Shown here one piece after another: positions 3,919-26,226 of a stretch of DNA of 64,000 bases (positions within the stretch are counted from its first letter, which is position 1; every line of letters starts with the position of its first letter). The translations under genes were made by a program, and so were the position numbers. The notes beneath the pieces were generated by a model. It saw only the letters and a list, made by a program, of their open reading frames with translations. It ran no database searches and was not told the DNA's origin. Source of the DNA: Polaribacter sp. NJDZ03 (GTDB taxonomy: Bacteria; Bacteroidota; Bacteroidia; Flavobacteriales; Flavobacteriaceae); NCBI RefSeq assembly GCF_019263805.1, contig NZ_CP079195.1, forward strand, positions 2,901,001-2,965,000, in the 5' to 3' direction.

Positions 3919-3962
3919 CTGATTTTGATCATATTTTAAAATCATCTTATTTTTTATTTTTG
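3919..3962 (+). promoter_or_regulatory. Crp/Fnr-like promoter of the small membrane protein gene
   Basis: A TGAT-TTTG-ATCA dyad occupies 3920-3931 (flanked c...t, so 8 of 10 matches to the FNR consensus TTGAT-N4-ATCAA). A perfect Bacteroidota -7 box TATTTTTG lies at 3955-3962. The dyad centre is 36.5 bp from the last base of the box, about -41 from the expected transcription start, which is the classical class II activator position. Four other promoters in this window show the same distance. No clear -33 element is needed in such a layout. Motifs are seen directly; regulation is inferred. Confidence 0.6.
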
Positions 3963-3975
3963 AATTCAAAATTAG

Positions 3976-4113
3976 ATGAATATGAGCTTTTTAAATATAC
4001 CACAAGTTTCTTGGGTAAATGGTACCATTATGATAGGCGTTTTTGCTGTAGTTGTTGTTGGCTTAGTTGTAGTCGTTTATTTATTAATGAGTACAGATAA
4101 AAAAGCAAAGTAA
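3976..4113 (+). CDS. Small single-pass membrane protein (45 aa)
   Basis: A short gene of 45 codons (or 43 if the second ATG at 3982 is used). It encodes a polar N-terminus with NIPQVSWVNG, one strongly hydrophobic helix (about residues 17-38, rich in Val), and a basic tail STDKKAK. The sequence has a promoter with an FNR-type dyad just upstream and a good hairpin terminator just downstream, so it looks like a monocistronic gene rather than chance. The pattern resembles small accessory subunits of respiratory complexes, but no family was recognised. The function is unknown; the regulatory context suggests a role in low-oxygen or redox physiology. Confidence 0.6.
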   Translation: MNMSFLNIPQVSWVNGTIMIGVFAVVVVGLVVVVYLLMSTDKKAK

Positions 4114-4131
4114 TTATTACCTAATATATAC

Positions 4132-4158
4132 AAAAGCCTGAGTTTATCTCGGGCTTTT
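4132..4158 (+). terminator. Rho-independent terminator
   Basis: Inverted repeat AAAAGCCTGAG / CTCGGGCTTTT with a 5-6 nt loop and one G-T pair, ending in a short T run. It lies 18 bp after the stop codon of the 45-residue membrane protein gene and separates it from the Crp/Fnr gene. Confidence 0.8.
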
Positions 4159-4234
4159 ATTGTTGCAATAAATTTCAATATCCTTTATTTATAAAAAACG
4201 TTTCACTATTTTTATAGATGAAAAATAAAGTAAA

Positions 4235-4867
4235 ATGACAAGTAAGTTAGAAATTAATTTTGGCTATCTTTTAGAAAAAGATTTAATTTCAGAAATAGAA
4301 GAATTAGGGGTTTTTAAAACCTTTAAAGAAGATACAACCATTATAGAAGTTGGAGATTATATTAAATCGATGCCTTTACTAATTTCTGGTGCTATTAAAA
4401 TTCTTAGAGAAGATGAGCATGGAGATGAGATTGTTTTATACTATTTAGAAAAAGGAGATACTTGTGCCATGACACTTTCTTGCTGTATGGGACAAACAAA
4501 AAGTAAGATTAGAGCGGTTGCAGAAACAAATGTTGAATTAATTATGTTGCCAAAAGAAAAAATGGCAGAATGGTTAGGGAAATATAAAACGTGGCAATCT
4601 TATATTTTACAAACCTATCATAACAGAATGGATGAGCTTTTAGAAGCTTTAGATACCATCGCTTTTCTAAAAATGGACGAGCGTCTTTTTAAATATCTTA
4701 AAGATAAGGCAATGGTTACCCACAATGATGTTTTAAATGTTACCCACAAACAAATTTCTGAAGATTTACATACCTCTAGAGTTGTAATTTCTAGATTGCT
4801 TAAAAAGTTAGAAAACGAAAGTAAAATTCAATTATTTAGAAATAGTATTAAAGTTTTAGAACTGTAA
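4235..4867 (+). CDS. Crp/Fnr-family transcriptional regulator
   Basis: A 210-residue DNA-binding regulator with an N-terminal cyclic-nucleotide-binding-type beta-roll (about 25-115), a dimer helix (about 118-145) and a C-terminal winged HTH (about 150-210). Recognition helix: HTSRVVISRLLKK. Aligned with CRP and FNR, R182 and R187 keep the two DNA-contacting arginines, but the glutamate that reads the G:C pair (CRP E181, FNR E209) is V183. There is no N-terminal FNR-type cysteine cluster; C77, C83 and C84 lie in the beta-roll (motif GDTCAMTLSCCM), a common Bacteroidota variant whose ligand is unclear. Its stop codon lies within the dyad of the next gene's promoter. It is a good candidate to act on the nearby GTAAC-N4-GTTAC sites. 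Confidence 0.9.
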   Translation: MTSKLEINFGYLLEKDLISEIEELGVFKTFKEDTTIIEVGDYIKSMPLLISGAIKILREDEHGDEIVLYYLEKGDTCAMTLSCCMGQTKSKIRAVAETNVELIMLPKEKMAEWLGKYKTWQSYILQTYHNRMDELLEALDTIAFLKMDERLFKYLKDKAMVTHNDVLNVTHKQISEDLHTSRVVISRLLKKLENESKIQLFRNSIKVLEL

Positions 4868-4907
4868 CATTAGTTACTGTGTAATTTAAAGTGGAGTCTT
4901 ATTTTTG
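4864..4907 (+). promoter_or_regulatory. Crp/Fnr-like promoter of the haem lipoprotein gene
   Basis: Perfect dyad GTAAC-ATTA-GTTAC at 4864-4877, overlapping the last codon and the TAA stop of the regulator gene, followed by a -7 box TATTTTTG at 4900-4907. Centre-to-box-end distance is 36.5 bp. The start codon at 4919 is 11 bp past the box, so the leader would be only about 5-7 nt. Confidence 0.7.
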
Positions 4908-4918
4908 TAATAAAAATA

Positions 4919-5890
4919 ATGAAATATTTTACTATTTTCATCGCAATTACTTTTCTTTTCGGTTGTAAAGATTCTAAAAAACCGCCCTATTCTAAGAAGA
5001 ATAACGTTTCAGAAATGCAAAACCATGCTGGTAAAAAGTTAATGGAAACAAACTGCTATGCTTGCCACAACCCAACAACAATAGAAGGTAATAGAATTGC
5101 ACCACCAATGATTGCTATTAAAAGACGTTATTTAATGGGCAACAGTTCTAAAGAATCTTTTATCAATTCTTTGCAAGATTTTATTAAAAACCCAACAGTA
5201 GAAAATGCTAAAATGTATGGAGCTGTAAAACGATTTGGAGTAATGCCAAAACAGGCTTTTCCTGAAGAAACCATTAAACAAATTGCAGATTATATGTTTA
5301 AGTTTGATATTGAAAAACCAACATGGTTTGAAGAACATTATAATAAACAGCATGGCAATAGTAACGGAATGCAAAAACAGCCCCAAGGAAATAATTTAAA
5401 AAAGTTATCTTATGGAGAACAAGGTTTAAAATACGCACTTTCTACCAAGACAGTTTTAGGGGGGAATTTAATGAGTAAAATGCAAAAAGAAGGAACGCTA
5501 GCTGCATTAAAGTTTTGTAATGTAAATGCATTCCCTTTAACAGATAGTATGTCTGTGGTACACAAAGCAACCATAAAAAGAGTGTCTGATAAGCCTAGAA
5601 ATCTTAAAAATAAAGCAACTGCTATAGAAAATGGATATATTACAGTGTTTAAAGAAGAGGCTAAATTAAATAAAGCGTCAGTACCAATTGTGGTAGAAGC
5701 TGCAGAAAATGTAAAAGTATATTATCCGATTAAAACAAATGGCATGTGTTTGCAATGTCATGGCCAACCAACCTTAGATATTAAAAGCACTACATTAGCA
5801 CAAATAGAAAAGTTATATCCAAAAGATTTGGCAATTGGATATAGTGAAAATCAAGTGAGAGGAATCTGGAGTATTACCTTTAATAAATAA
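4919..5890 (+). CDS. c-type haem lipoprotein: cytochrome c domain plus DUF3365 (Tll0287-like) domain
   Basis: A 323-residue exported lipoprotein (signal ending LFGC, lipidated Cys16). The first domain has the haem c attachment motif CYACH (46-50) followed by a cytochrome c core with [12 protein letters not shown] supplying a likely Met ligand (around residue 105-115). The second domain, about 160-323, resembles DUF3365/Tll0287-like haem sensor domains and carries CLQCH (277-281), so two haems are expected. It likely transfers or senses electrons in the periplasm. The adjacent Crp/Fnr gene, the dyad promoter and the thioredoxin 17 bp downstream suggest a redox-responsive unit. The DUF3365 name is from recall; the haem motifs are seen directly. 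Confidence 0.82.
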
Positions 5891-5907
5891 AAAAAACAAA
5901 TCTTAGT

Positions 5908-6207
5908 ATGCCTAACTTTACCGAAATTATAAATCAAGATAAACCTGTTTTAGTAGATTTTTTCGCAGAATGGTGTGGGCCTTGTAAAACCATGAGTCCA
6001 ATTTTAAAAGAAGTAAAAGACGCATTAGGTGATGCTGTTTCTATTGTTAAAATAGATGTTGATAAAAACCAATCGTTAGCAGCAAAATATGAAGTTAGAG
6101 GGGTACCAACCTTCATTTTATATAAGTCTGGAAAACAAGTTTGGAGACAATCTGGTGCAGTACCTAAAAACCAGTTAATCACTATTATAAATAACAGTGG
6201 TAAGTAA
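5908..6207 (+). CDS. trxA: Thioredoxin
   Basis: A 99-residue cytoplasmic thioredoxin with the active-site WCGPC at residues 22-26, the cis-proline segment RGVPTFILY, and no signal peptide. It starts 17 bp after the haem lipoprotein gene and is probably co-transcribed with it. It would reduce protein disulfides using electrons from thioredoxin reductase. Genomes of this group usually have several thioredoxins, so trxA is a family name rather than proof that this is the main one. Confidence 0.9.
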
Positions 6208-6354
6208 TTTAATAGTAGGTTGATTAGAAATAGTTTTCTAAAAAGGACATTTTTGTCAATCTGAATTTATTTCAGATGCTTATAAAGGTAGAACTTGATT
6301 AAGTTGATTTTTTGAAAAAGTTAAGTCTTTTAAACCTTTTTTAGACAGCCTCTT

Positions 6355-7944
6355 TTATTTAGAAATACAATCTAAACTATAAAAACCACCACAATTTTCG
6401 GTTCTCTTTTTAGAGAATTGTGTAATTAAATATGCAGTTGTAATTAAGTTTCTCAGTTCACATAAATCTATAGAAAGCTCAGAATGGTCATAGAGGCGTT
6501 TGTTGTCTTCATAAAGTACTTTTAAACGCTTTTCTGCGCGTAGCAAACGCTCATTAGAACGTACGATGCCTACATAATTACTCATAATAGTTTTTACTTC
6601 ATTTCTATCATGCGTAATTAATACTTTTTCCATGTTTTTAATAACACCACTATCATTCCAAACAGGAATATCTTTTGGGGTTTTGGCTTTATTATATTTT
6701 TTAGAAATGCTTAAAAATGCATTATGAGCATATACCAGTCCTTCTAATAAAGAGTTAGATGCCAATCTATTTCCGCCATGTAAACCAGTTCTGGTAACCT
6801 CACCACAAGCGTATAATTTCTTGATAGATGTTTTTGCTTTTTTGTTCACATTTACACCGCCACAAATATAATGAGCTGCAGGTACTACAGGAATATAGTC
6901 TTTGGTTACATCAATATTTAAAGATGCACATTTTTCTGTAATATTAGGAAAATGCTCTTTAAATTTTACCATGTCTAAATTAGTACAATCTAAATATACA
7001 TGCGGTTTTCCACTCTTTTTTAATTCATTATCAATGGCTCTTGCAACAATATCTCTAGAGGCTAATTCTTCTCTTTCATCATATTTATGCATAAAAAAAT
7101 CACCATTGTAATCTCTTAGTTTTGCACCAAATCCTCGCACAGCTTCGGATATTAAAAAGGCAGGATATTCGCCTGGGTTGTACAACGCGGTTGGGTGAAA
7201 CTGTATAAATTCCATTTCAGAAATTTCTGCCTTTGCACGGTATGCAATTCCTATTCCGTCTCCAGTTGCCACAGTTGGGTTTGTAGTAGTTTCGTAAACT
7301 TGCCCATTTCCTCCAGAAGCTAAAAGTGTAAATTTGCTTACAAAGGTTTTTACTTTATCTTCTTTAATATCTAAAACATAAGCACCATAACAAGAAATTT
7401 TGCCATTTCGCTTTGTTTTGGTCTTTTTAGTTTGATGCTCTGTAATTAAATCTATTGCGTAATGATAGGTAAGAAATTCTATGTTTGGTTGTGCATTTAC
7501 TTGCGCTAATAAAGCACGTTCTATTTCTGCACCTGTAATATCTGTATGATGTAAAATTCTGTTTTGCGAATGTCCGCCTTCACGACCTAAATCATAGTTT
7601 CCATTTTCATTTTCATCAAATTCTGTTCCCCAATTTATTAACTCTTGCAGTCTATCTGGTGCATTTTCTACAACCATTCTTACCACTTCTTCATCGCACA
7701 AACCATCACCGGCAACTAAAGTATCATTTATATGTTGTTCAAAAGTATCTACAGTTTTGTTGTAAACGGTTGCAATACCACCTTGGGCATATTTTGTGTT
7801 AGATTCGCTTTGTTTGTCTTTAGTAACAATAACAACTTTAGCATCTTTGTGTTCTATGGCAACTTTTAAAGCAAAAGTTAATCCAGAAACTCCAGAACCA
7901 ATTACTAAAAAATCGGTAGAGATTATGTTTTTATCAGGTAACAT
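6355..7944 (-). CDS. nadB: L-aspartate oxidase
   Basis: FAD enzyme that oxidises L-aspartate to iminoaspartate, the first step of bacterial NAD synthesis. 529 residues, usual length. The dinucleotide-binding motif GSGVSGL is near residue 17, AQGGIATVY near 53, and the fumarate reductase-like active-site segments EFIQFHPTALY and GEVTRTGLHGGNRLASNSLLEG are intact. Second gene of a nadA-nadB operon, starting 9 bp after nadA ends, so the two products are made together for direct use of the unstable intermediate. Confidence 0.96.
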   Translation of the reverse strand: MLPDKNIISTDFLVIGSGVSGLTFALKVAIEHKDAKVVIVTKDKQSESNTKYAQGGIATVYNKTVDTFEQHINDTLVAGDGLCDEEVVRMVVENAPDRLQELINWGTEFDENENGNYDLGREGGHSQNRILHHTDITGAEIERALLAQVNAQPNIEFLTYHYAIDLITEHQTKKTKTKRNGKISCYGAYVLDIKEDKVKTFVSKFTLLASGGNGQVYETTTNPTVATGDGIGIAYRAKAEISEMEFIQFHPTALYNPGEYPAFLISEAVRGFGAKLRDYNGDFFMHKYDEREELASRDIVARAIDNELKKSGKPHVYLDCTNLDMVKFKEHFPNITEKCASLNIDVTKDYIPVVPAAHYICGGVNVNKKAKTSIKKLYACGEVTRTGLHGGNRLASNSLLEGLVYAHNAFLSISKKYNKAKTPKDIPVWNDSGVIKNMEKVLITHDRNEVKTIMSNYVGIVRSNERLLRAEKRLKVLYEDNKRLYDHSELSIDLCELRNLITTAYLITQFSKKRTENCGGFYSLDCISK

Positions 7945-7953
7945 TTTAAGGCG

Positions 7954-8949
7954 TTATTTAGAAAGTTCTAGCATTCTGTTTATAGGAATTATTGCTTTTT
8001 CACATAATTCTGCTTCTACTTCTATATTTGGTAACTCGTGTTTTAAACATAAATACAATTTTTGCATTGTATTCATTTTCATATATGCACATTCACTACA
8101 AGCACATGTATTATCTTCTTTCGCCGGAGCAGGAATAATTATTTTATCAGGATTTTCTTGTAACATTTGAAACAAAATACCAGCTTCTGTAGCAACAATA
8201 AATTTCTTTTTATCACTATTTCTAACATGGTTTAAAAGGCCAGAAGTAGAACCAATATATTTAGCAACCTTAAGCATGTGCGCTTCAGATTCTGGATGCG
8301 CAATTAATTCTGCATCTGGATGTTCTTGATATAAGTCGATTAACTTTTCCATAGAAAAAGCTTCATGTACCATACAAGCTCCGTCCCAAAGTAACATTTC
8401 TCTTCCTGTTTCTTTATTTAAATAAGCACCCAAATTTCTGTCAGGAGCAAAAATAATTGGTTGGTCTAAAGGAATTGAATCGATAATTTTTCTAGCGTTA
8501 GATGAGGTACAAACGTAATCGCTTAAAGCTTTTATTTCTGCAGAGCAATTTATGTAAGTAACAACTAAGTGATCTGGATGTTTCTTTTTAAAGTCTGAGA
8601 ACTGTTCTGGCGGACAAGAATCTGCCAAAGAACAACCAGCTAATAAGTCTGGTAATAAAACTTTTTTAGTCGGATTTAATATTTTTGCAGTTTCTGCCAT
8701 AAAATGAACTCCTGCAAAAACAATAATGTCTGCATCTGTTTTAGCGGCTTGTTGTGCTAAAGCCAAACTATCACCTACAAAATCTGCAATTTCTTGAATC
8801 TCATCTATTTGATAGTAATGCGCTAAAATAACGGCATTCTTCTCTTTTTTTAGTTTCAAAATCTCCTCAACATAATCAATATTAGGAGTTTCAATATCTA
8901 AAAATCCTTTTTTGTTGAGGTTTTTTTTTGCACTAACTAAAGTTTTCAT
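7954..8949 (-). CDS. nadA: Quinolinate synthase A
   Basis: Condenses iminoaspartate with dihydroxyacetone phosphate to quinolinate using a [4Fe-4S] cluster. 331 residues. The usual motifs are present: [54 protein letters not shown] and the C-terminal [14 protein letters not shown], which supplies cluster cysteines. First gene of the operon with nadB. A -7 box TATATTTG lies on the minus strand 27 bp upstream of the ATG. Together with pncA-pncB in the same window, both routes to NAD are represented. Confidence 0.96.
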
Positions 8950-8976
8950 AAAAAGTGTTTATTATTAACTACGTTG

Positions 8977-8984
8977 CAAATATA
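8977..8984 (-). promoter_or_regulatory. -7 box of the nadA-nadB promoter
   Basis: CAAATATA on the plus strand reads TATATTTG on the minus strand, a perfect TAnnTTTG match 27 bp before the nadA start. No clear -33 TTG was found at the usual distance and no Crp/Fnr-like dyad is present at the 36.5-bp position. Confidence 0.5.
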
Positions 8985-9053
8985 AACTCTATTTTGTTGG
9001 TAGGAAAATGATTGGCGTCATTCTGTTAAATTATGGTTGTAATAAGCTAAAAA

Positions 9054-9635: not shown

Positions 9636-9675
9636 TAAGTGCTTTTTAAAAAGTGTGTTTTTTGTAAGTCTTAAT

Positions 9676-10317
9676 CTATTTAAGATTTTCTAGAAATACT
9701 TTAAATTCATCCGTATTATAATTAGCCATTCCTTCATGTGCTAATACAATATTTTTATCAGTATCAATGATGTAAGTTGTAGGTAAGGCAGAAGATTGTA
9801 ACATTGCAGGTAGGTTTCCTACAAGCGTATAAATTGGTAGGTTATAACCTTTACGTTTATCAAAATCCTTTGCCGTTTCAAAATTTTTATCAAAAGACAG
9901 CAGTATAAAAGCGATATCATTTCCCATTTCTTTATGTAATTTACTAATACTTGGCATTTCTGCAATACAAGGAGGGCACCATGTTGCCCAATAATTTAGA
10001 AATATTACTTTGTCTTTTAAATCTGCTAAAGATGTAATTTTTCCATCGGCATCCATCAACCTTACATTTAAATTAGCTTTTGCGTATTCCGTAATGGTTT
10101 CAGAATCTTTTTTATGTGTAATTTCCTTTACATTAGGGTTCATTAAGCCAGTAGCTAATACGCCTCGTTGTACAAAACCAATAACCTCTGTGTGCAAACC
10201 TGTAGCGTAAAGTGTAATAATAATGCAGACAAAAACTCCGTTCTGAATCCACGTTTTCTTGGTGTTTTTATTTTTTTTCATTTTATTTTTTTTAAGAAAT
10301 TGTATCTTTTTTTTCAT
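9676..10317 (-). CDS. TlpA-like membrane-anchored thioredoxin
   Basis: A thiol-disulfide oxidoreductase facing the periplasm. It has a very lysine-rich N-terminus, one signal anchor (GVFVCIIITLYATGL), then a TlpA/ResA-type domain with YWATWCPPC and the cis-proline segment SALPTTYIID. Two starts are possible: ATG at 10317 (213 aa) or ATG at 10281 (201 aa); the second leaves a more normal basic N-terminus and may be the true one. Such proteins reduce apo-cytochrome c cysteines or other exported thiols. The upstream promoter carries a perfect GTAAC-N4-GTTAC dyad, linking it to the cytochrome bd and haem lipoprotein genes. Confidence 0.88.
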   Translation of the reverse strand: MKKKIQFLKKNKMKKNKNTKKTWIQNGVFVCIIITLYATGLHTEVIGFVQRGVLATGLMNPNVKEITHKKDSETITEYAKANLNVRLMDADGKITSLADLKDKVIFLNYWATWCPPCIAEMPSISKLHKEMGNDIAFILLSFDKNFETAKDFDKRKGYNLPIYTLVGNLPAMLQSSALPTTYIIDTDKNIVLAHEGMANYNTDEFKVFLENLK

Positions 10318-10445: not shown

Positions 10446-10489
10446 CAAACATAGATAAAATAAGACTTTACGCAGGTAACTCTAGTTAC
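10446..10489 (-). promoter_or_regulatory. Crp/Fnr-like promoter of the TlpA-like gene
   Basis: Dyad GTAAC-TCTA-GTTAC at 10476-10489, extended to GGTAACT-CT-AGTTACC (10475-10490). On the minus strand the -7 box TATGTTTG lies at 10446-10453. Centre-to-box-end distance is again 36.5 bp. The leader would be about 120-160 nt depending on the start used. On the plus strand the equivalent position holds only AATAATTG, so the site probably works leftward. It shares the 331-bp gap 10318-10648 with the cydA promoter; nothing else was seen in that gap. Confidence 0.68.
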
Positions 10490-10571: not shown

Positions 10572-10615
10572 GCTACTTATGTTACATAGAGAATGTAATA
10601 CAATGTTTATTTTTG
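10572..10615 (+). promoter_or_regulatory. Crp/Fnr-like promoter of cydAB
   Basis: One-mismatch dyad GCTAC-TTAT-GTTAC at 10572-10585 and a -7 box TATTTTTG at 10608-10615; centre-to-box-end distance 36.5 bp. A second perfect inverted repeat, TTACATAGAGAATGTAA (10582-10598), overlaps its right half and could bind another factor or the same one in a shifted register. cydA starts at 10649, 33 bp past the box. Confidence 0.65.
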
Positions 10616-10648
10616 CAGATATTAATAAGTATAACAAGTATTTTTAAT

Positions 10649-11980
10649 ATGGAAGACATGATTTTTTATGATAGATTGCAATTTGCATTTACTATCACCT
10701 TTCACTATATATTTCCGCAGTTAACAATGGGACTTTCATTACTGATTGTCTATTATAAATGGAAATACCTCAGAAATAATAATGAAAAATATAACAATGC
10801 TGCAAAATTTCTGATGAAAATTTTTGCAATTAACTTTACAATGGGTGTTATAACTGGTATTCCAATGGAATTTCAATTTGGTACCAATTGGGCTAAATTT
10901 TCTGAATTAACTGGTGGAATTATCGGTCAGACTTTGGCAATGGAAGGGATGTTCTCTTTCTTTTTAGAATCCTCTTTCTTAGCGCTCTTTATTTTTGGTG
11001 AAAAATTAATGGGACAAAAACTTCATTTCTTAACCGGTTTTTTGGTGTTTTTAGGTTCTTGGGCAAGTGGTTGGTTTATTTTAGCTACCAATGCTTGGAT
11101 GCAACATCCGGTAGGTTATGAAATTTTACAGAATGGTAAGTTTGTGTTAGAAAACTTCTCTGCACTGTTTAGTAATCCTTGGTTATTACCTGCTTTTTTA
11201 CACAATCAAATGGCGTCTGTGGTAACTTCTTCTTTTGTGGTTGCAAGTATTGGTGCTTTTTATATTTTAAGAAAAAAACAAGTAGAATACGGGAAAATAT
11301 TTTTAAAAACAGGTGTAATTTTTGGTTTGATTTCTAGTGTTTTAGTGGCTTTACCTACGGGAGATTGGAACGCTAAAAATGTGGCAAAATATCAACCAGC
11401 TGCTTTTGCTGCTATGGAAGGAATTTTTGAAACAGAAGAAGCTGGAGCAGAAATTGTGTTGATTGGTCAACCAAATATGGTAGAAAAAAAGTTAGACAAT
11501 AAAATTGCGGTTCCTAATATTTTAAGTTTTTTAACGCATCAAGATTGGAATAAGCAGATTCCTGGAATGGATCAATTCAAAGAAGAAGAATTACCAGATA
11601 ATATTCCGGCGCTGTATTATTCATATCACATAATGGTTGGTTTAGGTACCATTTTTATTGGTATTATGGCACTAGCACTTTTCTTTTTATGGCGAAAAAA
11701 ACTGTATACTTTTAAGCCAATACTTTGGTTTATTATGTTTTTAGTTCCGTTTCCGTACATCGCAAATCTTACAGGTTGGTACACGGCAGAGTTAGGGAGA
11801 CAGCCGTATTTAGTATATGGATTGTTAAAAACTAGCGATGGTATTTCGCCAACCGTATCTTCTGGTAACACCTTATTTACCTTATTAGGTTTTGTTGCTT
11901 TGTATATGTTACTAGGACTATTATTTTTAGTTTTAGTTGGTAAAACGATTAACGAAGGTCCTAAACTTGAAAAACATTAA
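10649..11980 (+). CDS. cydA: Cytochrome bd ubiquinol oxidase subunit I
   Basis: Haem-bearing subunit of the high-affinity terminal oxidase that oxidises quinol and reduces oxygen to water. The ATG at 10649 is chosen over an upstream in-frame TTG at 10613 because that TTG is the end of the -7 box and because this start places the haem-ligand histidine of FTITFHYIFPQLTMG at residue 19, as in E. coli CydA. A second ligand candidate is H185 (LPAFLHNQMAS). The conserved GRQPYLVYGLLKTSD stretch is near the end. At 443 residues it is a short Q-loop type. cydB follows after 3 bp. Confidence 0.96.
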   Translation: MEDMIFYDRLQFAFTITFHYIFPQLTMGLSLLIVYYKWKYLRNNNEKYNNAAKFLMKIFAINFTMGVITGIPMEFQFGTNWAKFSELTGGIIGQTLAMEGMFSFFLESSFLALFIFGEKLMGQKLHFLTGFLVFLGSWASGWFILATNAWMQHPVGYEILQNGKFVLENFSALFSNPWLLPAFLHNQMASVVTSSFVVASIGAFYILRKKQVEYGKIFLKTGVIFGLISSVLVALPTGDWNAKNVAKYQPAAFAAMEGIFETEEAGAEIVLIGQPNMVEKKLDNKIAVPNILSFLTHQDWNKQIPGMDQFKEEELPDNIPALYYSYHIMVGLGTIFIGIMALALFFLWRKKLYTFKPILWFIMFLVPFPYIANLTGWYTAELGRQPYLVYGLLKTSDGISPTVSSGNTLFTLLGFVALYMLLGLLFLVLVGKTINEGPKLEKH

Positions 11981-11983: not shown

Positions 11984-13057
11984 ATGGAAATATTTTGGTA
12001 CATTATAATAGCAACGGTTTTAGGTATCTTTTTTGTTTTAGATGGATATGATTTCGGAACAGGAATTATTCATTTATTTTTTGCAAAAAAAGAGAAGGAT
12101 AAAGAAGTAATTACAAAATCTGCAGGTTTATTTTGGGATTCTAATGAGGTTTGGTTAGTGGCAGCTGGAGGGATGCTTTTTATGGCTTTTCCTACTTTTT
12201 ATGCTTCTGTATTTAGTGGATTTTACTTACCCTTAATCATCGTTTTATGGTTGATTATTTTTAGAGCAATTGGCCTTGAATTTAGGAGTCAGTTTAAGTA
12301 TCAAATGTGGAAAGACATTTGGGATGTTTCTTTTGGAGTTTCTAGTTTATTATTAGCCTTATTTTTTGGGATTGCGCTAGGGAATATTGTGAGAGGTGTA
12401 AATTTAGGTGGCGTAGAAAACGGAGTTTCTGTGTACGAAGGGCATTATTTTTTCTTGCCATTATGGGATAGTAGTTTTAGTCCTTTAACAGAGCATCCAG
12501 GGGTTATAGATTGGTTTACGATTATTATAGGTTTAATTTCTGTTGTTACTTTAGCAATTCACGGTGCTAATTGGATAATTTTAAAAACCAATTCAACTAT
12601 TAACTTAAAATTGAAAGGTGTTATTTTTAAGTTGAATATTGCTTTAACAATTCTTACCATTGTTTCTGTAGCACTTTGGCAAATTGTAAATCCAGACTCT
12701 TTAAATAATTTTGTTGATAAACCTTATTTATTGGTATTCCCTATGCTGTATTTTACAGGATTAGTTGGTTTGTTTTTTATCAAAAAAATTAAAAAAGAGG
12801 TACATGCTTTTTGGCTATCAACGTTATTAATATTAGGAGGAATTACTTCTTCTTTGGCTTCTTTATTTCCAGTTATTTTACCTTCTGTCAATAATGTTCA
12901 CGAGCCACTTACCATATATAATACTTCGGCACCAGAATACGGTTTGTCTGTGGCATTTATTTGGGGAATTATCGGTATTATCTTAATTGTAATTTATGCA
13001 ATTATTCAAAAAAGATTAAAGGGAGGTAAAGTTGATAAAATGGATTACGGCCATTAG
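11984..13057 (+). CDS. cydB: Cytochrome bd ubiquinol oxidase subunit II
   Basis: Partner subunit of CydA, 357 residues with about eight or nine membrane helices. The family start FWYIIIATVLGIFFVLDGYDFGTGI is present, as are WDSNEVWLVAAGGMLFMAFP and the segment IHGANWIILKT. It starts 3 bp after cydA and is followed 15 bp later by a small membrane protein gene. No cydDC haem/thiol exporter genes lie beside it. Confidence 0.95.
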   Translation: MEIFWYIIIATVLGIFFVLDGYDFGTGIIHLFFAKKEKDKEVITKSAGLFWDSNEVWLVAAGGMLFMAFPTFYASVFSGFYLPLIIVLWLIIFRAIGLEFRSQFKYQMWKDIWDVSFGVSSLLLALFFGIALGNIVRGVNLGGVENGVSVYEGHYFFLPLWDSSFSPLTEHPGVIDWFTIIIGLISVVTLAIHGANWIILKTNSTINLKLKGVIFKLNIALTILTIVSVALWQIVNPDSLNNFVDKPYLLVFPMLYFTGLVGLFFIKKIKKEVHAFWLSTLLILGGITSSLASLFPVILPSVNNVHEPLTIYNTSAPEYGLSVAFIWGIIGIILIVIYAIIQKRLKGGKVDKMDYGH

Positions 13058-13386: not shown

Positions 13387-13446
13387 ATGATATAAGTCAT
13401 CTTATCTAGTTTCAATTCATTATACATTTGTTAACCAATTGGTTAA
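13387..13446 (+). promoter_or_regulatory. Promoter and likely auto-operator of the TetR/ABC-exporter operon
   Basis: A -7 box TACATTTG lies at 13423-13430. Immediately after it is a perfect 16-bp palindrome, TTAACCAATTGGTTAA (13431-13446), covering the expected transcription start, the usual place for a TetR repressor to block its own operon. In addition, ATGAT-ATAA-GTCAT (13387-13400) is an imperfect FNR-like dyad whose centre is 36.5 bp from the end of the -7 box, the spacing seen at five stronger sites; this part is weaker. Confidence 0.65.
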
Positions 13447-13458
13447 ACTAAATAGTTG

Positions 13459-14070
13459 ATGGGCGGGACTAAAAACGAAAATACAGAAGATCAAATTTTA
13501 AATGCAGCAAAAAATGTATTTCAATCTAAAGGAATGGATGGTGCTCGCATGCAAGAAATTGCCAATGAAGCAGGCATAAACAAAGCAATGTTGCACTATT
13601 ATTATAGAAGTAAACAATTACTTTTTGAAGCTGTTTTTATAAATGCTTTCTCCTTATTAGCGCCTCAAATAAATGCTATTTTAAATGACGATTCATCTAT
13701 AGAAAATAAAATACGAAATTTTTCTTCGAACTATATTTCCTTTATTGAGCAGCATCCTTATTTACCTAATTTTATTATTCAAGAATTAAATAGAAATCCT
13801 GATTTTATGTTAAAAATGAAGGAAAATAATGTGTTTCCAAATCTAGAGAAATTTAAAAAACAGGTAACTATTGAAGTTAAAAATGGCACTCTTAAAAATA
13901 TTAGCGCGGAGCAATTATTTATAAATATTCTAGCCTTAAATGTATTTCCTTTTATAGCCAAGCCTTTAATTAAGGGTTTAATAGCAGTTGAAGAAGACGG
14001 ATTTCAGCAAATAATTGAAGATCGTAAAACTGAAGTTGCCGATTTTATCATTAATTCAATAAAAAAATAA
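13459..14070 (+). CDS. TetR/AcrR-family transcriptional repressor
   Basis: A 203-residue repressor. The N-terminal HTH (about residues 9-55) reads ILNAAKNVFQSKGMDGARMQ... with AGINKAMLHYYYRSKQLLFEAVF as the recognition helix and following helix; the rest is a helical ligand and dimer domain. The ATG at 13459 is preferred to the TTG one codon earlier. It ends 1 bp before the TolC gene, so it heads the exporter operon. This resembles E. coli CecR (YbiH) preceding ybhGFSR. It is expected to bind the 16-bp palindrome upstream and to release it when an exported compound or related signal binds. Confidence 0.92.
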   Translation: MGGTKNENTEDQILNAAKNVFQSKGMDGARMQEIANEAGINKAMLHYYYRSKQLLFEAVFINAFSLLAPQINAILNDDSSIENKIRNFSSNYISFIEQHPYLPNFIIQELNRNPDFMLKMKENNVFPNLEKFKKQVTIEVKNGTLKNISAEQLFINILALNVFPFIAKPLIKGLIAVEEDGFQQIIEDRKTEVADFIINSIKK

Positions 14071-18761: not shown

Positions 18762-18762
18762 A

Positions 18763-20260: not shown

Positions 20261-20264
20261 AATA

Positions 20265-20302
20265 GTTTGCAGTCACAGTAAAGAGTAGCAGTATTCAGTT
20301 AA
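20265..20302 (+). repeat. Family III low-complexity CAGT repeat
   Basis: TTTGCAGTCACAGTAAAGAG followed by AGCAGTATTCAGTT units, directly after the permease 1 stop. It shares units such as GCAGTAAAGAGTAG with 28762-28825. The rest of the 147-bp gap is AT-rich with no gene. Confidence 0.5.
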
Positions 20303-20407
20303 ACAAAAAAGTGAAATTTAGATAAGAGTAAATAAAGTTAAGAGAAAATATAGGCTAAACTAAAATGTCTTTTTTCTTTATTCTATTCTCTTTATTCTTT
20401 TATAAAT

Positions 20408-21529
20408 ATGAAAACAATATTATACATCATACAGAAAGAATTTAAGCAAATCTTTAGAAATAAAGGAATGCTTCCAATCATTTTTGTTTTACCGTTATTA
20501 CAACTCGTTATTTTATCTAATGCGGCTACTTTTGAAGTGAAAAACATCAAATTTGGCTATATAGATCATGATCATACATCAACCTCTAGAGCGTTAATAG
20601 AAAAATTTAATGCTTCTACCTATTTTGATGTATTAACCGATTTTCCTTCAGAAAAATTAGCAAGTTCAGAAATGCTAAAAGGTAAGGTAGATGTAGTTAT
20701 AGAAATTCCCCACTACTTTGAACGTGATTTACAAAAAGAAAAATACAATAAATTAGGAGTAACTATTAACGCCATTGATGGAGCAGCAGCAGGTGTAGAA
20801 AACGTATATGTAACACAGATTTTACAGAGTTTTAATCAACAGATAAAAACAGATTTATTACAAATTTCAGACAAAGGCGTACAGCCAATTAGTATTGCAA
20901 CCATTCCTTTATTCTGGTATAATAAAACATTGAATTACAAAACGTTTATGGTTCCTGGAATTCTTGTTTTGCTGGTTACCATGATTACTTTATTCCTTTC
21001 GGGGATGAATATTGTTCGAGAAAAAGAAATAGGAACTTTAGAGCAAATAAACGTGACACCTATTAAAAAGAGTCAGTTTATAATTGGTAAACTTTTTCCG
21101 TTTTGGGTGATAGGAATGGGGCTATTAACAGTAGGATTAACTTTAGCAAAACTGATATTTAACGTTCCTATGATTGGTAGTTTGGCACTTCTATATTTAT
21201 ACACATCTATTTATATTTTGGTGATTTTAGGCATCGGGTTATTCATTTCTAACTTTACAGATACACAGCAGCAAGCCATGTTTATTGCTTGGTTTTTTAC
21301 CGTTATTTTTATTTTAATGAGCGGCTTGTTTACACCTATCGAAAGTATGCCAGAGTGGGCACAAATAGTTACAGAATTCAATCCAATAAAATATTTTGTT
21401 GAGGTTATGCGTATGGTAATGCTTAAAGGTTCTGGTTTTACAGATATTCTTCCGCAATTAATAAAAACATTACTTTTTGCCATTGTTATGAATGGTTTGG
21501 CAGTTTGGAGTTATAAGAAAACATCATAA
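20408..21529 (+). CDS. ABC-2 exporter permease 2 (YbhR-like)
   Basis: A 373-residue membrane subunit with the same layout as permease 1: N-terminal helix (RNKGMLPIIFVLPLLQLVILS), extracytoplasmic domain (about 45-175), five further helices, ABC-2 motif NIVREKEIGTLEQINVTPIKKSQF (about 198-221) and FILMSGLFTPIESMPEWAQ near the C-terminus. It closes the exporter operon. Substrates of YbhGFSR-type systems include cationic drugs and possibly cations, but none can be assigned here. Confidence 0.92.
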   Translation: MKTILYIIQKEFKQIFRNKGMLPIIFVLPLLQLVILSNAATFEVKNIKFGYIDHDHTSTSRALIEKFNASTYFDVLTDFPSEKLASSEMLKGKVDVVIEIPHYFERDLQKEKYNKLGVTINAIDGAAAGVENVYVTQILQSFNQQIKTDLLQISDKGVQPISIATIPLFWYNKTLNYKTFMVPGILVLLVTMITLFLSGMNIVREKEIGTLEQINVTPIKKSQFIIGKLFPFWVIGMGLLTVGLTLAKLIFNVPMIGSLALLYLYTSIYILVILGIGLFISNFTDTQQQAMFIAWFFTVIFILMSGLFTPIESMPEWAQIVTEFNPIKYFVEVMRMVMLKGSGFTDILPQLIKTLLFAIVMNGLAVWSYKKTS

Positions 21530-21671
21530 TTACTATCGTATATTATTAGAAAATGCAACATTAACTTAGTTTTTAGGTTGAGTAATTATTAATATCTTGC
21601 AGTAAGAGAAAATTGATGAATTTAAAAATTCATATTCAGATTACTTTATTTTAATAAACAGGGTTTAAGGA

Positions 21672-23855
21672 ATGTCAAAAACTGAAAAATTCGGCACATT
21701 TGCAGGTGTTTTTACACCATCAATACTTACCATTTTAGGTGTAATTATGTATATGCGTCTTGGTTGGGTAGTTGGAAACGCAGGCTTATTAGGTGCTATT
21801 CTAATTATTATAATTGCACATGTTATTTCTATCTCAACAGGTCTTAGTGTGTCTTCTGTTGCCACTGATAAAAAAATTGGTGCAGGCGGAATTTATTATG
21901 TCCTTTCTAGAAGTATGGGTGTTCCAATTGGTGGTTCTATTGGTATTGCTTTGTATGTAGGTACCGCTTTTTCTATTGCATTATATTTAATAGGTTTTGC
22001 AGAAAGTTTTAATAGTTATTTGGGCTTCGGAATGGAAATAAATGACTTTAGAATTACGGGAACTATCGCTTTAGTTTTACTGACAGCTTTGGCATTAATA
22101 AGCACATCCGTTGCCTTAAAATCTCAATATTTTATTTTAGGAGCCATTGTTTTATCAATAGTTTCTATCTTCTTTGGGTCGCATGATTTTACACCACAAA
22201 CGGTATCTATGTTTTCTACGGAAGGATCGGTTCCTTTAGAGGTTGTTTTTGCCATGTTTTTCCCTGCAGTTACTGGTTTTACTGCGGGTATAGCAATGAG
22301 CGGAGATTTAAAAGATCCTAAAAACTCTATTCCTAAAGGTACTTTACTCGCTATTGGGGTTGGTTTAATTGTGTATTTAGTATTGGCAGTTTTTATAGCC
22401 TACACCATAGATTCTGAAGTTTTAAAATCGGATTACAATATTCTAATGAAAATAGCCTTTTTTGCTCCTGCCGTAATTGCTGGGGTTTGGGGAGCAACAT
22501 TATCATCCGCTTTAGGCGGAATTTTAGGTGGCCCAAGAATTTTACAAGCCATGTCTGTAGATAAAGTTACACCTCGTTTTTTTGCAAAAGGAAGAGGTGA
22601 AAATAATGAGCCAGTAAATGCTTTATTGTTGGTGTTTTTAATTGCAGAAGCCGGAATTTTAATAGGTGAATTAGATGTTATTGCGCGTGTGGTTTCTATG
22701 TTTTATTTAACCGCTTACGGCTTTATAAATCTGTCTTATTTTTTAGAAAGTTGGGCAAACCCAGATTTTCAGCCCACTTTTAAAATTAAAAGATGGATTG
22801 GTTTGGTGGGTTTTGTAGCTTGTTTTGGAGTGATGTTTAAATTAGACATGATTGCAATGATTGGTGCTTTAGCTGTAATTAGTGGGTTGTATTTTATGTT
22901 GCAACGAAATGAAGTGAAAATAAATTCTACAGATATCTGGAAAAGCGTTTGGGAAAATGTGGTAAATAAAGGCTTGATGCGGATTGATACAAAACATGAT
23001 ATTGACACTAATTGGAACCCAAATATTATTCTTTTTAGCGGAAGTAGTGAGCATCAGGGGTATTTATTAGAATTAAGTAAAGCCGTTTCTGGTAAAACGG
23101 GTGTGGTTACTAACTTTAAGTTGATTATTGATAAAGAGAATAAAATTCCTTTAAAGAAGAGAGATCAGGTTGTTAGAGAAGACATCTATAATGAATTAGG
23201 TATTTTTGCTAGACAAGTTAAGGTTGATAATTTATATAAAGGAATTACCAATATTGCTACTACTTTTGGTTTTTCTGGCGTGGAACCGAATACCATTATG
23301 ATGGGGTGGCCAAAAGGTTTAGAAGGTTCTTCTGAATATGCAGAAATGACGGAAACTTTGCTCTATTTAGATTATAACTTATTGTATTTAGATTTTGATA
23401 GAAAATCGAAATTTGGAAGGTACAAAACCATCGATTTATGGTGGCGAGAAACCGACAGTAAAAATGCCGAAATGATGCTAAATATTGCTCGTTTTATTAT
23501 TGCTGCTCCAAAATGGAATCAAACTTCTATTCGTGTTTTATTTGTGGATAATAATAATGTGAATCCGGATGTTATTCATGCAAAAATATCTGAATTGGTA
23601 GAAGATCTTAGAGTATTAGTAGAAATTGTAATTGTAGAAAATGTTATAGATCAAACCCCTTTTTACGATTTAATAAAGCAATACTCTAAATCTACAGATT
23701 TAACAATTGTTGGAATTCCTAATTATAAAATTGAAAAACAAGCTCAATTTATTCTTAAAACAAACGACTTATTCGAAACTATTGGCTCTACGTTATTAGT
23801 AAAAGCTGCCAATAATTTTAATGTTTTAGACTTAGATTTTGAAGAAGATAAGTAG
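21672..23855 (+). CDS. SLC12-like amino acid permease / cation-chloride cotransporter homologue
   Basis: A 727-residue APC-superfamily transporter. The N-terminal two-thirds (about 1-430) has some twelve helices and begins FGTFAGVFTPSILTILGVIMYMRLGWVVGNAG, the hallmark of eukaryotic NKCC/KCC cotransporters and their bacterial relatives. About 450-727 forms a soluble domain with the SLC12-like segments NIILFSGSSEHQGYLLELSK and WWRETDSKNAEMMLNIARFI. It is a stand-alone gene between the exporter and pncA, whose 3' end is 17 bp away on the other strand. Substrate unknown; bacterial relatives transport amino acids or potassium with chloride. Confidence 0.85.
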   Translation: MSKTEKFGTFAGVFTPSILTILGVIMYMRLGWVVGNAGLLGAILIIIIAHVISISTGLSVSSVATDKKIGAGGIYYVLSRSMGVPIGGSIGIALYVGTAFSIALYLIGFAESFNSYLGFGMEINDFRITGTIALVLLTALALISTSVALKSQYFILGAIVLSIVSIFFGSHDFTPQTVSMFSTEGSVPLEVVFAMFFPAVTGFTAGIAMSGDLKDPKNSIPKGTLLAIGVGLIVYLVLAVFIAYTIDSEVLKSDYNILMKIAFFAPAVIAGVWGATLSSALGGILGGPRILQAMSVDKVTPRFFAKGRGENNEPVNALLLVFLIAEAGILIGELDVIARVVSMFYLTAYGFINLSYFLESWANPDFQPTFKIKRWIGLVGFVACFGVMFKLDMIAMIGALAVISGLYFMLQRNEVKINSTDIWKSVWENVVNKGLMRIDTKHDIDTNWNPNIILFSGSSEHQGYLLELSKAVSGKTGVVTNFKLIIDKENKIPLKKRDQVVREDIYNELGIFARQVKVDNLYKGITNIATTFGFSGVEPNTIMMGWPKGLEGSSEYAEMTETLLYLDYNLLYLDFDRKSKFGRYKTIDLWWRETDSKNAEMMLNIARFIIAAPKWNQTSIRVLFVDNNNVNPDVIHAKISELVEDLRVLVEIVIVENVIDQTPFYDLIKQYSKSTDLTIVGIPNYKIEKQAQFILKTNDLFETIGSTLLVKAANNFNVLDLDFEEDK

Positions 23856-23872
23856 TTGGTTTAGGTGTGTTT

Positions 23873-24478
23873 TTAAATCAATTTTGATGAAATAATTCGG
23901 ACTCCCATATCAATCATATCTTTTTTAATTTTCTTAAAACCTTCGTTATCTAAAGCTTCGGAAGCATCTTCAATAAAATAACAGTCAAAACCTTCTTTAA
24001 CAGCATCACGAATGGAGTAATAAACACAAATATCTGCAGCTAACCCACACATAAAGAGTTGGGTAGTTCCTTTTTCTTTTAAATATCCAGCTAATCCGGT
24101 AGATTTTAGGTGTCCATTATCATAAAAGGCACTATAGCTATCTATTTTCTTATCTGTTCCTTTTCTAAAAATAGTTTCACATTGTAATGTGTTTAGTTTA
24201 GGATGTAATTCTGCTCCTTTAGAACCTTGTACACAGTGATTTGGCCATAAGGTTTGTGGTTGTCCTTTTATTTTAATTTCATCAAAATTAGATAACCCTT
24301 TATGGTTCGAAGCAAAACTGATATGATCCTCTGGATGCCAATCTTGCGTAGCAATTACCAAATCAAATTTAGGTTGTATATCATTGATAATTGAAACTAT
24401 TTTATCTCCATTAGGAACAGGAAGCGATCCAGTTGGCATAAAGTCGTTTTGTACATCGATTATAAGAAGTGTTTTCAT
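23873..24478 (-). CDS. pncA: Nicotinamidase
   Basis: Hydrolyses nicotinamide to nicotinate in NAD salvage. 201 residues, usual length. The catalytic triad is visible as D8 (IIDVQNDF), K106 (FRKGTD) and C151 (GLAADICVYYS); metal ligands are D46 and H48 (QDWHPEDH) and H81 (WPNHCVQ). It lies 66 bp downstream of pncB on the same strand, so the two genes supply consecutive steps. Confidence 0.95.
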   Translation of the reverse strand: MKTLLIIDVQNDFMPTGSLPVPNGDKIVSIINDIQPKFDLVIATQDWHPEDHISFASNHKGLSNFDEIKIKGQPQTLWPNHCVQGSKGAELHPKLNTLQCETIFRKGTDKKIDSYSAFYDNGHLKSTGLAGYLKEKGTTQLFMCGLAADICVYYSIRDAVKEGFDCYFIEDASEALDNEGFKKIKKDMIDMGVRIISSKLI

Positions 24479-24544
24479 AAATCGTTTTTTAGTTGAAATT
24501 AATATATAATCATGCTATACACAATGGTCTCATGAATATTCAAT

Positions 24545-25942
24545 TTAGAATTTATGTTCTTGTATCAATTGATCGCGGTCTTGTTTTAGTTTTAAGCTAA
24601 GTCCTATTTTGTAAATATGCGGATTCTGAAAACGTTTGTATTCATTTGGAAGCTGTGCTAAACGAGATTTAGAATATGCAGCAATTTCAGAAACAGATCT
24701 AGAAGGGACTGTTTTTTTTCCATTTTCCATAACTTTCTCTAGCAATGGTTCTTGTTTAAAAGCATCTAAATTTAAACTTTTTGTAGCATCAAAAGGATGT
24801 TCTATTTTCGCTACTTCGCCTTCTTTATATAGTACTACAGCATCCGCACCATAAAACATGCCTTTATCATCTAACATTCTATAAACCTGTTTTTTGTAAG
24901 GTAATGATACTTTTATAATGTTTTCGGAAAGTTTAATTCTTGGCTCTCCATTGTATTCAGATAATTTATAAACACCATCCATGGCAGCATCAGGATTTCC
25001 TGTAACTAAATTAGTTCCAACACCAAAAATATCAATAGGAGCTTCTTGCTCTTTAAGACTTTTTATAACATATTCATCCAATTGATTAGAGGCTACAATT
25101 TTTACATAATCTAAACCGGCTTCGTCTAAAATTGCTCTCGTTTTTTTAGATAAATATGCCAAATCACCACTATCTAAACGGACTCCAAGTAATTTTTCTC
25201 CTCTAGCTTCCATTTCTTTGGCTACCGTAATCGCTTTTGGTAATCCACTTTTTAAACTATTGTAGGTATCTATTAAAAGTACACAGCCTTTTGGTCGTAT
25301 GCTTGCAAAATCTCTAAATGCTTGTATTTCTTCTTTATAACTTTGTATGAATGAGTGCGCCATTGTACCCGTAGACGGAATGTTATAATCTTTGGCAGCA
25401 ATGACATTACTTGTACTATCAAAACCACCAATTATAGCGGCTCTTGATGCATAATAGCCTCCAGTGGCATGTGCACGACGTAAACCCATATCTAATAGAA
25501 CTTCCTTTTTTGCACTATATCTAATTCTGCTTGCTTTGGTTGCTATTAAAGTCTGAAAATTAAGAATGTTTAGTAAAAAAGTTTCTATAATCTGTGCTTC
25601 AATAATATTCGCTTCTACCTGTAAAATAGGGCGATTAGGAAAAACAACATCACCTTCCTTACTTGAAAAAATAGTTCCTTTAAAACTAAAATTCTTCAAG
25701 TATTCTAAAAAATCATTCTGAAAACCATGTTGTTCTAAATATGCAATATCAGAAGCTGAGAATTTAAAAGTTTCTAAAGTCTTTAATACATCTTCTAATC
25801 CTGCAAAAATAGAATACCCACCATTAAAAGGATTGTGGCGATAATAATAATCAAAGACGGCTCGTCCATCTGGTTTCGTCTTAAAATAGACTTGAGCCAT
25901 GGTAAGTTGATAAAGATCTGTGTAAGCCGCTGTAATATTCAT
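24545..25942 (-). CDS. pncB: Nicotinate phosphoribosyltransferase
   Basis: Converts nicotinate and PRPP to nicotinate mononucleotide with ATP hydrolysis. 465 residues. Motifs include TDLYQLTMAQVYF at the start, FDYYYRHNPFNGGYSIFAGLED, the catalytic-histidine region GTMAHSFIQSY, GVRLDSGDLAYLSKK and FGVGTNLVTGNPDAAMDGVYKL. It precedes pncA. The 305-bp gap upstream (25943-26247) holds the dyad at 26183-26196; a near-match minus-strand -7 box, TATAGTTG, lies at 26153-26160, also 36.5 bp from the dyad centre, so pncB may share the regulator. That last point is tentative. Confidence 0.95.
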   Translation of the reverse strand: MNITAAYTDLYQLTMAQVYFKTKPDGRAVFDYYYRHNPFNGGYSIFAGLEDVLKTLETFKFSASDIAYLEQHGFQNDFLEYLKNFSFKGTIFSSKEGDVVFPNRPILQVEANIIEAQIIETFLLNILNFQTLIATKASRIRYSAKKEVLLDMGLRRAHATGGYYASRAAIIGGFDSTSNVIAAKDYNIPSTGTMAHSFIQSYKEEIQAFRDFASIRPKGCVLLIDTYNSLKSGLPKAITVAKEMEARGEKLLGVRLDSGDLAYLSKKTRAILDEAGLDYVKIVASNQLDEYVIKSLKEQEAPIDIFGVGTNLVTGNPDAAMDGVYKLSEYNGEPRIKLSENIIKVSLPYKKQVYRMLDDKGMFYGADAVVLYKEGEVAKIEHPFDATKSLNLDAFKQEPLLEKVMENGKKTVPSRSVSEIAAYSKSRLAQLPNEYKRFQNPHIYKIGLSLKLKQDRDQLIQEHKF

Positions 25943-26182
25943 GCTAATTAAGTTTTAAAATGTGAAGGTATTTAAAAAAAGAGATATTATTCCTAAGCCT
26001 TTAGAAAAAAAGTGCATTCCTTTATTTTAAACATTTCTATAACTCCCATAACCGTTCTTTTATTTGTGAAAATTTTTATAATAGTTTATCCTAGAACTAC
26101 TTTTAATTCTATTTGTGGTAGTGAATCCGTGTGTTTCGTAAAAATAAGTATGCAACTATAGCGAACTATCATTCTTTGCTCG

Positions 26183-26226
26183 GTAACTTATGTTACTGAC
26201 TAGAGAAATAGTCTAATGTACATTTG
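26183..26226 (+). promoter_or_regulatory. Crp/Fnr-like promoter of the second RND efflux operon
   Basis: Perfect dyad GTAAC-TTAT-GTTAC at 26183-26196 and -7 box TACATTTG at 26219-26226; centre-to-box-end distance 36.5 bp. The TTG at 26224 inside the box is not the start codon; the ATG at 26248 is. The dyad shares its TTAT centre with the cydA site. Confidence 0.72.

Follow-up and report, generated by a model that had tools for sequence, protein, structure and literature searches.

The locus described here raises the question of whether promoters that share one rigid geometry also share one regulator and one signal. It lies in a 64,000-nucleotide stretch of the Polaribacter sp. NJDZ03 genome (contig NZ_CP079195.1, positions 2,901,001 to 2,965,000; hereafter, the window), in which five TAnnTTTG promoter boxes are each preceded by a dyad and a Crp/Fnr-family regulator is encoded at 4235-4867. 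A first-pass annotation had read these promoters as a single low-oxygen or redox regulon. The motif, its spacing, the missing -33 element, the co-occurrence of sites and regulator, the match between residue and half-site, and the target families were all computed here. On this basis the earlier regulon has to be split in two, and its GTAAC-N4-GTTAC part is re-read in terms of reactive-sulfur and thiol stress. We consider it probable, though well short of certain, that this part forms a reactive-sulfur/thiol-stress regulon under the 4235-4867 protein, acting as a cysteine-bearing class II Crp/Fnr activator.

Promoter geometry in the window and the genome

We define the gap as the distance between dyad and box; for GTAAC dyads, gap 22 corresponds to 36.5 bp between the dyad centre and the final base of TAnnTTTG. 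The five boxes and their dyads were all found where they had been annotated, each dyad centred 36.5 bp from the box end, and the three exact GTAAC dyads were recomputed. A dyad resembling GTAAC-N4-GTTAC (two mismatches or fewer) precedes four of the 104 TAnnTTTG boxes of the window at gap 22, and none was found before a box at the remaining gaps between 12 and 32. In 100 shuffles of the window, the mean number of such pairs at gap 22 was 0.08 and the maximum was 1, which bears out the earlier view that the repeated spacing is unlikely to be due to chance. On its own, the palindrome is nothing unusual for the window (three matches with one mismatch or fewer, a number reached in 20 of the 100 shuffles), and therefore it is the spacing that carries the signal.

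The genome that was scanned consists of a single contig of 4,078,668 bases and contains the exact palindrome at 11 places. Four of these have an exact TAnnTTTG at 36.5 bp, and a fifth (L007) has the 7-of-8 box TAATATTG at the same distance. None of the other six has a box at that position; five lie inside open reading frames (ORFs) and one in a terminator-like stem. In this last case (L003, G000:C1:2091750-2091763), the palindrome forms the core of a long inverted repeat with T behind it, and therefore the bare palindrome alone does not make a site.

When palindrome and box were searched together at the fixed spacing, the genome gave 4, 4, 6 and 86 matches at 0, 1, 2 and 3 mismatches, against 0.006, 0.29, 6.5 and 89 expected from the base composition of the window. 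Because a reversed-pattern control gave nearly the same total (93) as the true pattern (100), the true excess is limited to zero or one mismatch, where eight matches on seven dyads (one dyad being matched on both strands) compare with about 0.3 expected. The signal is thus strong with one mismatch or none and absent with two or three, and the genome-wide enrichment at fixed spacing that the first-pass annotation had proposed as a check is present.

The one-mismatch matches in this genome stand before a rhodanese gene; before a gene row that is led by a ruvB-like gene (a name given by eye), continues with genes for a sulfate permease and a metallo-lactamase/rhodanese protein, and is, we guess, a single transcript; before a gene for a 795-amino-acid protein; and, where the 26183 dyad is read on its opposite strand, before a nicotinate phosphoribosyltransferase gene. 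The 795-amino-acid protein (L163:2455-4842) has no Pfam match, and its gene is preceded by a dyad whose box, at 36.5 bp, fits in 7 of 8 positions; it is possibly a new regulon member. On the minus strand, the 26183 dyad has TATAGTTG (7 of 8 box positions) at 36.5 bp (26153-26196), directed toward the nicotinate phosphoribosyltransferase gene at 24545-25942, and this one dyad may serve both directions.

Spacing in related genomes

The spacing was also analyzed in two partly overlapping sets of genomes, one of 59 genomes including our own, in which gaps of 8-38 were allowed (31 gaps), and one of 196 genomes of the order, with gaps of 18-26. In the 59 genomes, 58 of the 76 dyad and box matches are at gap 22; when our own genome is left out (58 genomes), the figure is 54 of 71, with none at gap 21 or 23. 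The wider set gave 87 matches, of which 72 are at gap 22, five at 21, four at 23 and six elsewhere. Gap 12 was considered as a second geometry and rejected: four of the five gap-12 matches precede a DUF983-like gene, and for these four a 7-of-8 box, GAAATTTG, lies at gap 22; the fifth is the other strand of a gap-22 dyad.

No preference for TTTG between dyad and box was found in 194 sites. Bacteroides promoters, in contrast, have been described as TTTG/TAnnTTTG at -33/-7 (PMC10620806), and this difference suggests that the regulator, when bound, takes the place of the -33 contact. The promoters thus combine a fixed distance between the dyad and the -7 box with the absence of a -33/-35 element of their own, both of which are features of class II Crp/Fnr promoters. 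The dyads would be centred near -41, as in class II activation, and we infer that they serve activation; the spacing supports the class II placement upstream of the -7 box that had been proposed earlier.

Target genes of the GTAAC sites

To which genes do these sites belong? Set A, comprising the stretches fetched from relatives and the window, holds 58 sites (four from our own genome), 55 of them with a first gene; families were named from Pfam matches of representatives. TolC-type proteins (18) and rhodanese or metallo-lactamase/rhodanese proteins (12) are the most frequent, followed by thioredoxin_9 (8), cytochrome c (7), sulfate permease (3), thioredoxin/TlpA-type (3), HMA (2), TauE (1) and YeeE (1). 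A scan of GTDB covered at least 118 stretches with at least 133 sites and at least 124 first genes, and 25 of 50 families were listed. Among the matches listed (124), we counted rhodanese 31, TolC-type 18, metallo-lactamase 13 (overlapping in part with the rhodanese proteins), TauE 9, Fer4 6-7, thioredoxin_9 5, prismane (Hcp) 5, sulfate permease 4, YgaP-type 4, DUF983 4, YeeE-type 3, fatty acid hydroxylase 3 and SoxA/TsdA-type cytochrome 2, with others fewer. As a scale for the 31 rhodanese genes, our own genome has nine rhodanese stretches in total. In relatives, the targets are thus largely sulfur, thiol and efflux genes, which suggests a role in the handling of sulfide or reactive sulfur.

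The regulator and its cysteines

The protein encoded at 4235-4867 belongs to the Crp/Fnr superfamily, having a cyclic-nucleotide-binding (cNMP-binding) fold and a Crp-type helix-turn-helix domain (AlphaFold model, mean predicted local distance difference test score 89). Its family profile matched CRP, NtcA and 3DV8 among PDB chains, the best being 3DV8 (1.3e-35). Its recognition helix reads TSRVVISR, with Val183 at the position of CRP Glu181. Our own genome gave 12 cNMP-binding-domain matches; among the eleven of these that were translated, Arg182, Val183 and Arg187 occur together only in this protein (by eye).

Co-occurrence was counted over the 196 genomes of the order, our own included, with the best homologue of the regulator classed as E<=1e-60, as 1e-60 to 1e-35, or as none at 1e-35. 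A gap-22 site was present in 28 of the 37 genomes of the first class, in 9 of 80 of the second and in none of the 79 of the third. Within the genus, 26 of 29 genomes with an orthologue have a site versus none of the seven without, several of which are incomplete. The sites often abut the regulator gene in relatives, and the dyad adjoining the regulator gene in the window is an arrangement common to several of them. The contrast between 28 of 37 and 0 of 79 genomes supports the earlier proposal for the regulator, and the 4235-4867 protein is likely to be the binder of GTAAC-N4-GTTAC.

FNR, a 4Fe-4S oxygen sensor, is marked by an N-terminal cysteine cluster. The 4235-4867 protein lacks this hallmark, because its only cysteines are at 77, 83 and 84; with sites that read GTAAC-N4-GTTAC and not TTGAT-N4-ATCAA, FNR membership was rejected. 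Cys77 is present in 76 of 76 rows of the V/E type (Val or Glu at the CRP-181 position) and in none of 11 HcpR-type rows (two more rows, both distant, were left out of the count), and it is invariant in a 60-sequence alignment of V/E-type rows. In the AlphaFold model it stands just before helix 78-86, within the stretch aligned to the cyclic AMP (cAMP) cassette of CRP, which in a profile alignment reads GDTCAMTLSCC here versus GDFIGELGL in CRP. In CRP this region holds cAMP. Cys83 occurs in 41 of the 42 closest rows (r000-r041) and in none of 14 GTGAC-associated rows.

Recognition residue and half-site

Regulators encoded within 4 kb of GTAAC sites carry R-V-R (41), R-P-R (11), R-E-R (1), K-D-R (1) or T-E-R (1). 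The variant dyad GTGAC-N4-GTCAC gave 20 matches in 19 of the 196 genomes (gap 22 in 11, 23 in 7, 21 in 1 and 26 in 1); regulators were found within 4 kb at 14 of these 20 loci, and all 14 carry R-E-R. Although the correspondence rests on few evolutionary changes, the residue at CRP-181 thus appears to track the half-site, V or P going with GTAAC and E with GTGAC. Replacement of Glu181 was linked to the HcpR2 motif by Rodionov et al. (2005, PMC1274295), and since HcpR2, with Pro, has the same published motif, Val and Pro appear to share one half-site in two lineages.

The GTGAC loci (L350-L369) form a parallel set in which the gap is mostly 22 or 23 and a Glu-type paralogue adjoins the site in 14 of 20; their first genes by eye encode YgaP-type membrane proteins (5), rhodaneses (2), a thioredoxin_9-like protein (1) and a 280-amino-acid family (9).

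A separate FNR-class set

The remaining promoter of the five, behind the 3920 dyad, belongs elsewhere. At the same geometry, TGAT-N4-ATCA with the box gave 6 exact matches and 29 in total with one mismatch or fewer, whereas the reversed control gave 12. We looked at 24 of the 29 sites, and 20 gave a first gene. By eye, these include genes for nitrite reductase, phosphotransacetylase, phosphofructokinase, CcoS and a universal stress protein, several of them belonging to anaerobic or energy metabolism; TetR, TonB-like and porin-like genes fall outside it. The 3920 dyad is therefore a member of a separate FNR-class set that shares the promoter architecture, as judged from sequence. FNR-type regulons (TTGAT-N4-ATCAA) resemble the GTAAC set in their spacing to the box but differ in half-site and targets. 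Two Crp/Fnr proteins of our own genome, L042 and L045, have Glu at the 181 position (by eye), and either is a candidate binder of the TGAT sites.

A further FNR-class dyad with one mismatch, followed by TACATTTG at the same geometry, was observed at 13388-13430 of the window. By eye, the gene behind it (13456-14070) is of the TetR type, and the genes after that one resemble outer membrane efflux and ABC transporter genes.

Gene content of the window

Genes of the window were assigned to families by Pfam or NCBIfam profile matches (Table 1). The thioredoxin gene and the cytochrome c lipoprotein gene upstream of it possibly share one transcript, and a thioredoxin gene of similar size lies directly 3' of the GTAAC site in two relatives (L118 and L145). 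The TlpA-like gene is divergent from cydAB. A second RND permease/TolC gene pair, at 110-3914, lies directly upstream of the regulator region; the palindrome scan of the window found no GTAAC-class palindrome (one mismatch or fewer) near it.

Table 1. Genes, dyads and promoter boxes of the window
Feature	Position	Strand	Remarks
Dyad TGAT-N4-ATCA, FNR class	3920..3931	+	outside the GTAAC regulon; box 3955-3962
45-amino-acid membrane-like protein	3976..4113	+	behind FNR-class site
Crp/Fnr-family regulator, 210 amino acids	4235..4867	+	Pfam PF00027 6.7e-12, PF13545 5.2e-7
Dyad GTAAC-N4-GTTAC, ahead of cytochrome c/Tll0287 lipoprotein gene	4864..4877	+	overlaps 3' end of regulator gene
TAnnTTTG -7 box of cytochrome c lipoprotein gene	4900..4907	+
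Cytochrome c and Tll0287-like lipoprotein	4919..5890	+	Pfam PF11845 1.6e-18, PF00034 2.5e-5
Thioredoxin, 17 bp 3' of cytochrome c lipoprotein gene	5908..6207	+	Pfam PF00085 9.5e-32
TlpA-like thioredoxin/redoxin	9676..10317	-	Pfam PF00578 1e-15, PF08534 3.8e-15
Dyad GTAAC-N4-GTTAC for TlpA-like gene	10476..10489	-	box 10446-10453 on minus
Dyad GCTAC-N4-GTTAC (2 mismatches) for cydA	10572..10585	+	box 10608-10615
Cytochrome bd oxidase subunit I	10649..11980 (ORF listed from 10613)	+	Pfam PF01654 5.3e-146
Cytochrome bd oxidase subunit II	11984..13057	+	Pfam PF02322 2.9e-75
Dyad GTAAC-N4-GTTAC for TolC-type/RND gene row	26183..26196	+	box 26219-26226
TolC-family outer membrane efflux protein	26248..27558 (ORF listed from 26224)	+	Pfam PF02321 2.2e-47
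RND periplasmic adaptor	27693-28772	+	NCBIfam TIGR01730 1.9e-66, over cut-off
RND permease	28982-32176	+	NCBIfam NF033617 5.4e-143, below cut-off of that model

The cytochrome bd site

The dyad of cydA has no genome-wide support of its own, since two-mismatch matches are at chance level in this genome (6 versus 6.5 expected). A site of this kind is not significant by itself, and the case for it therefore rests on partial conservation. We found 15 cydA-like loci in 36 genomes and judged the 11 closest, including our own (G000). Gap-22 dyads lie upstream of cydA in six of the 10 others: G004 has one mismatch, G006 has two like G000, G001 and G021 have one mismatch and a 7-of-8 box, and in G008 and G018 the dyad is GTGAC-N4-GTCAC. 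Sulfide insensitivity has been described for E. coli bd oxidases (PMC4815019). Cytochrome bd would therefore be a sensible member of such a regulon, and despite its weak site it could act there as a sulfide-resistant oxidase.

Proposed mechanism and its rivals

Together, the results suggest the following mechanism. The 4235-4867 protein, as a dimer of the Crp/Fnr family, would bind GTAAC-N4-GTTAC centred near -41 and recruit RNA polymerase to TAnnTTTG promoters without a -33 element (class II activation). Its lineage would be distinct from those of FNR and HcpR, marked by the invariant Cys77 in that portion of the effector domain where CRP holds its cAMP and, in its branch, by Val at CRP-181. 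We infer sulfide, persulfide or polysulfide as the signal and Cys77, together with Cys83 where present, as the sensor. The regulon would comprise rhodanese, the metallo-lactamase/rhodanese fusion, sulfur-anion transporters, thioredoxins, the TolC/RND pump and c-type cytochrome, with the sulfide-insensitive cytochrome bd included in some species and probably in this one too.

Several observations weigh against this mechanism. Among the targets, TolC/RND, the most frequent family of set A, has no citable sulfur role, and some other first genes of set A show no visible sulfur link; among the at least 133 GTDB sites, a first gene is lacking for nine, and 14 fall within open frames of at least 150 codons. 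As for the regulator, nine of the 37 genomes with an orthologue have no perfect site, and Cys83 is not conserved throughout the family. The match between residue and half-site amounts to about four changes on the tree, with one or two independent pairs, and the E-type regulator L333 adjoins a GTAAC site. In a check of twenty genomes with weaker homologues (nine with a site and 11 without), V-type residues were found in five of the nine with a site, but the best homologue is of the E type in the other four and of the V type in two of the 11 without. The pairing of E-type regulators with GTGAC, seen at 14 loci, did not extend to those of genus g21 (L315, L316, L319 and L320; GQACAISMIC): no perfect dyad at gap 21-23 was found in their fetched stretches, nor any GTGAC match in their genomes. 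Finally, the cydA site is weak here, with its two mismatches, the cydA dyads of G008 and G018 are of the GTGAC type, and none was found in G003, G017, G036 or G013, the last of which has no regulator orthologue.

Could all five promoters nevertheless answer to one low-oxygen or redox Crp/Fnr regulator, as first annotated? The identical geometry at all five, the presence in the genome of an FNR-class set of that same geometry, and the aptness of cytochrome bd and a c-type cytochrome for oxygen limitation would agree with this. However, the two dyad classes each have their own genome-wide set, the 3920 dyad being of the FNR type, and the single regulon was rejected on this ground. The low-oxygen reading of the GTAAC set likewise found no support, because in relatives the set precedes mainly genes of sulfur, thiol and efflux families and the local regulator has no N-terminal cysteine cluster; with Val instead of Glu at 181, it is also a poorer candidate for the TGAT sites than L042 and L045. 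We regard one common regulon as distinctly unlikely. A haem-based sensor of carbon monoxide, nitric oxide (NO) or sulfide, similar to CooA, HcpR or PgRsp and with Cys77 as a possible haem ligand, is somewhat less improbable but still unlikely. CooA uses Cys75, and PgRsp of Porphyromonas gingivalis, described as a Bacteroidota Crp/Fnr protein outside the named families and modelled on 3DV8, has Cys76 and binds haem (PMC6955866); HcpR, which has the same palindrome in other species, is described as sensing NO by haem (PMC12750200), and CooA chains are weak matches to our family profile (1ft9 1.1e-6, 2fmy 2.4e-7). Yet replacement of Cys76 is reported to have left the haem spectra of PgRsp unchanged (PMC6955866), the 55 first genes in set A include no hcp gene, and the targets are sulfur rather than NO genes. 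PgRsp is a haem binder with an oxidative-stress phenotype according to the same source, and its kinship with our regulator is a lead only.

That the sites belong to a Flavobacteriia HcpR with an NO or nitrosative-stress regulon is the least probable of these alternatives, and we give it very little credence. It would account for the palindrome, since HcpR2 is a Crp/Fnr protein that has lost Glu181 and whose consensus was published in 2005 as GTAACnnnnGTTAC (PMC1274295). The palindrome does differ from the FNR consensus, as annotated, but it is not new. The gap is 22 at 10 of 11 HcpR-type loci and 21 at the other, and hcp and ferredoxin-type genes lie behind such sites among the GTDB matches listed, where an HcpR-type regulator occurs at nine of 11 loci with such a first gene. 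However, HcpR2 has Pro at CRP position 181, with Ser or Gln in a few species (PMC1274295), and targets hcp and ferredoxin genes; the HcpR-type regulators at the 11 loci have Pro there and lack Cys77, and their rows split from the 76 V/E rows with a Shimodaira-Hasegawa-like approximate likelihood ratio support of 100, though on long branches. No hcp gene was seen at our own sites (one mismatch or fewer) or in set A with its 55 first genes, our own genome not having been searched for hcp. HcpR membership was thus rejected on residue (Val183, not Pro, Ser or Gln), targets and clade. At two loci, L204 and L217, an HcpR-type regulator and a GTAAC site were observed with a first gene of a lipoprotein-like family of 618-620 amino acids, not hcp.

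Implications

The DNA motif has thus been known since 2005, whereas its pairing with this regulator lineage and with sulfur targets was not found in our searches; among the open-licence PMC papers listed, no report of such a regulon was found by title or abstract start. The regulators closest in function to the one proposed here are CstR, SqrR/BigR and FisR, which control genes for handling sulfide and persulfide and sense via cysteines; those described in the source are CsoR-like, ArsR-family and Fis-family proteins, with no Crp/Fnr sensor among them (PMC9774590). If our reading is true, a Crp/Fnr persulfide regulator would add a further protein family to these three. A broader proposal, which we advance tentatively and with rather less than even confidence, is that this lineage is a master regulator of reactive-sulfur responses in much of Bacteroidota, in which persulfidation of the invariant cysteine in the former cAMP pocket replaces the ligand and a Val/Glu switch at a single residue of the recognition helix splits parallel GTAAC and GTGAC sulfur regulons built on one rigid class II design. 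The correspondence of V/E with A/G is a testable rule to predict the sites of uncharacterised Crp/Fnr proteins, and the Bacteroidota would gain a candidate switch for their sulfide response whose promoter code can be searched for.

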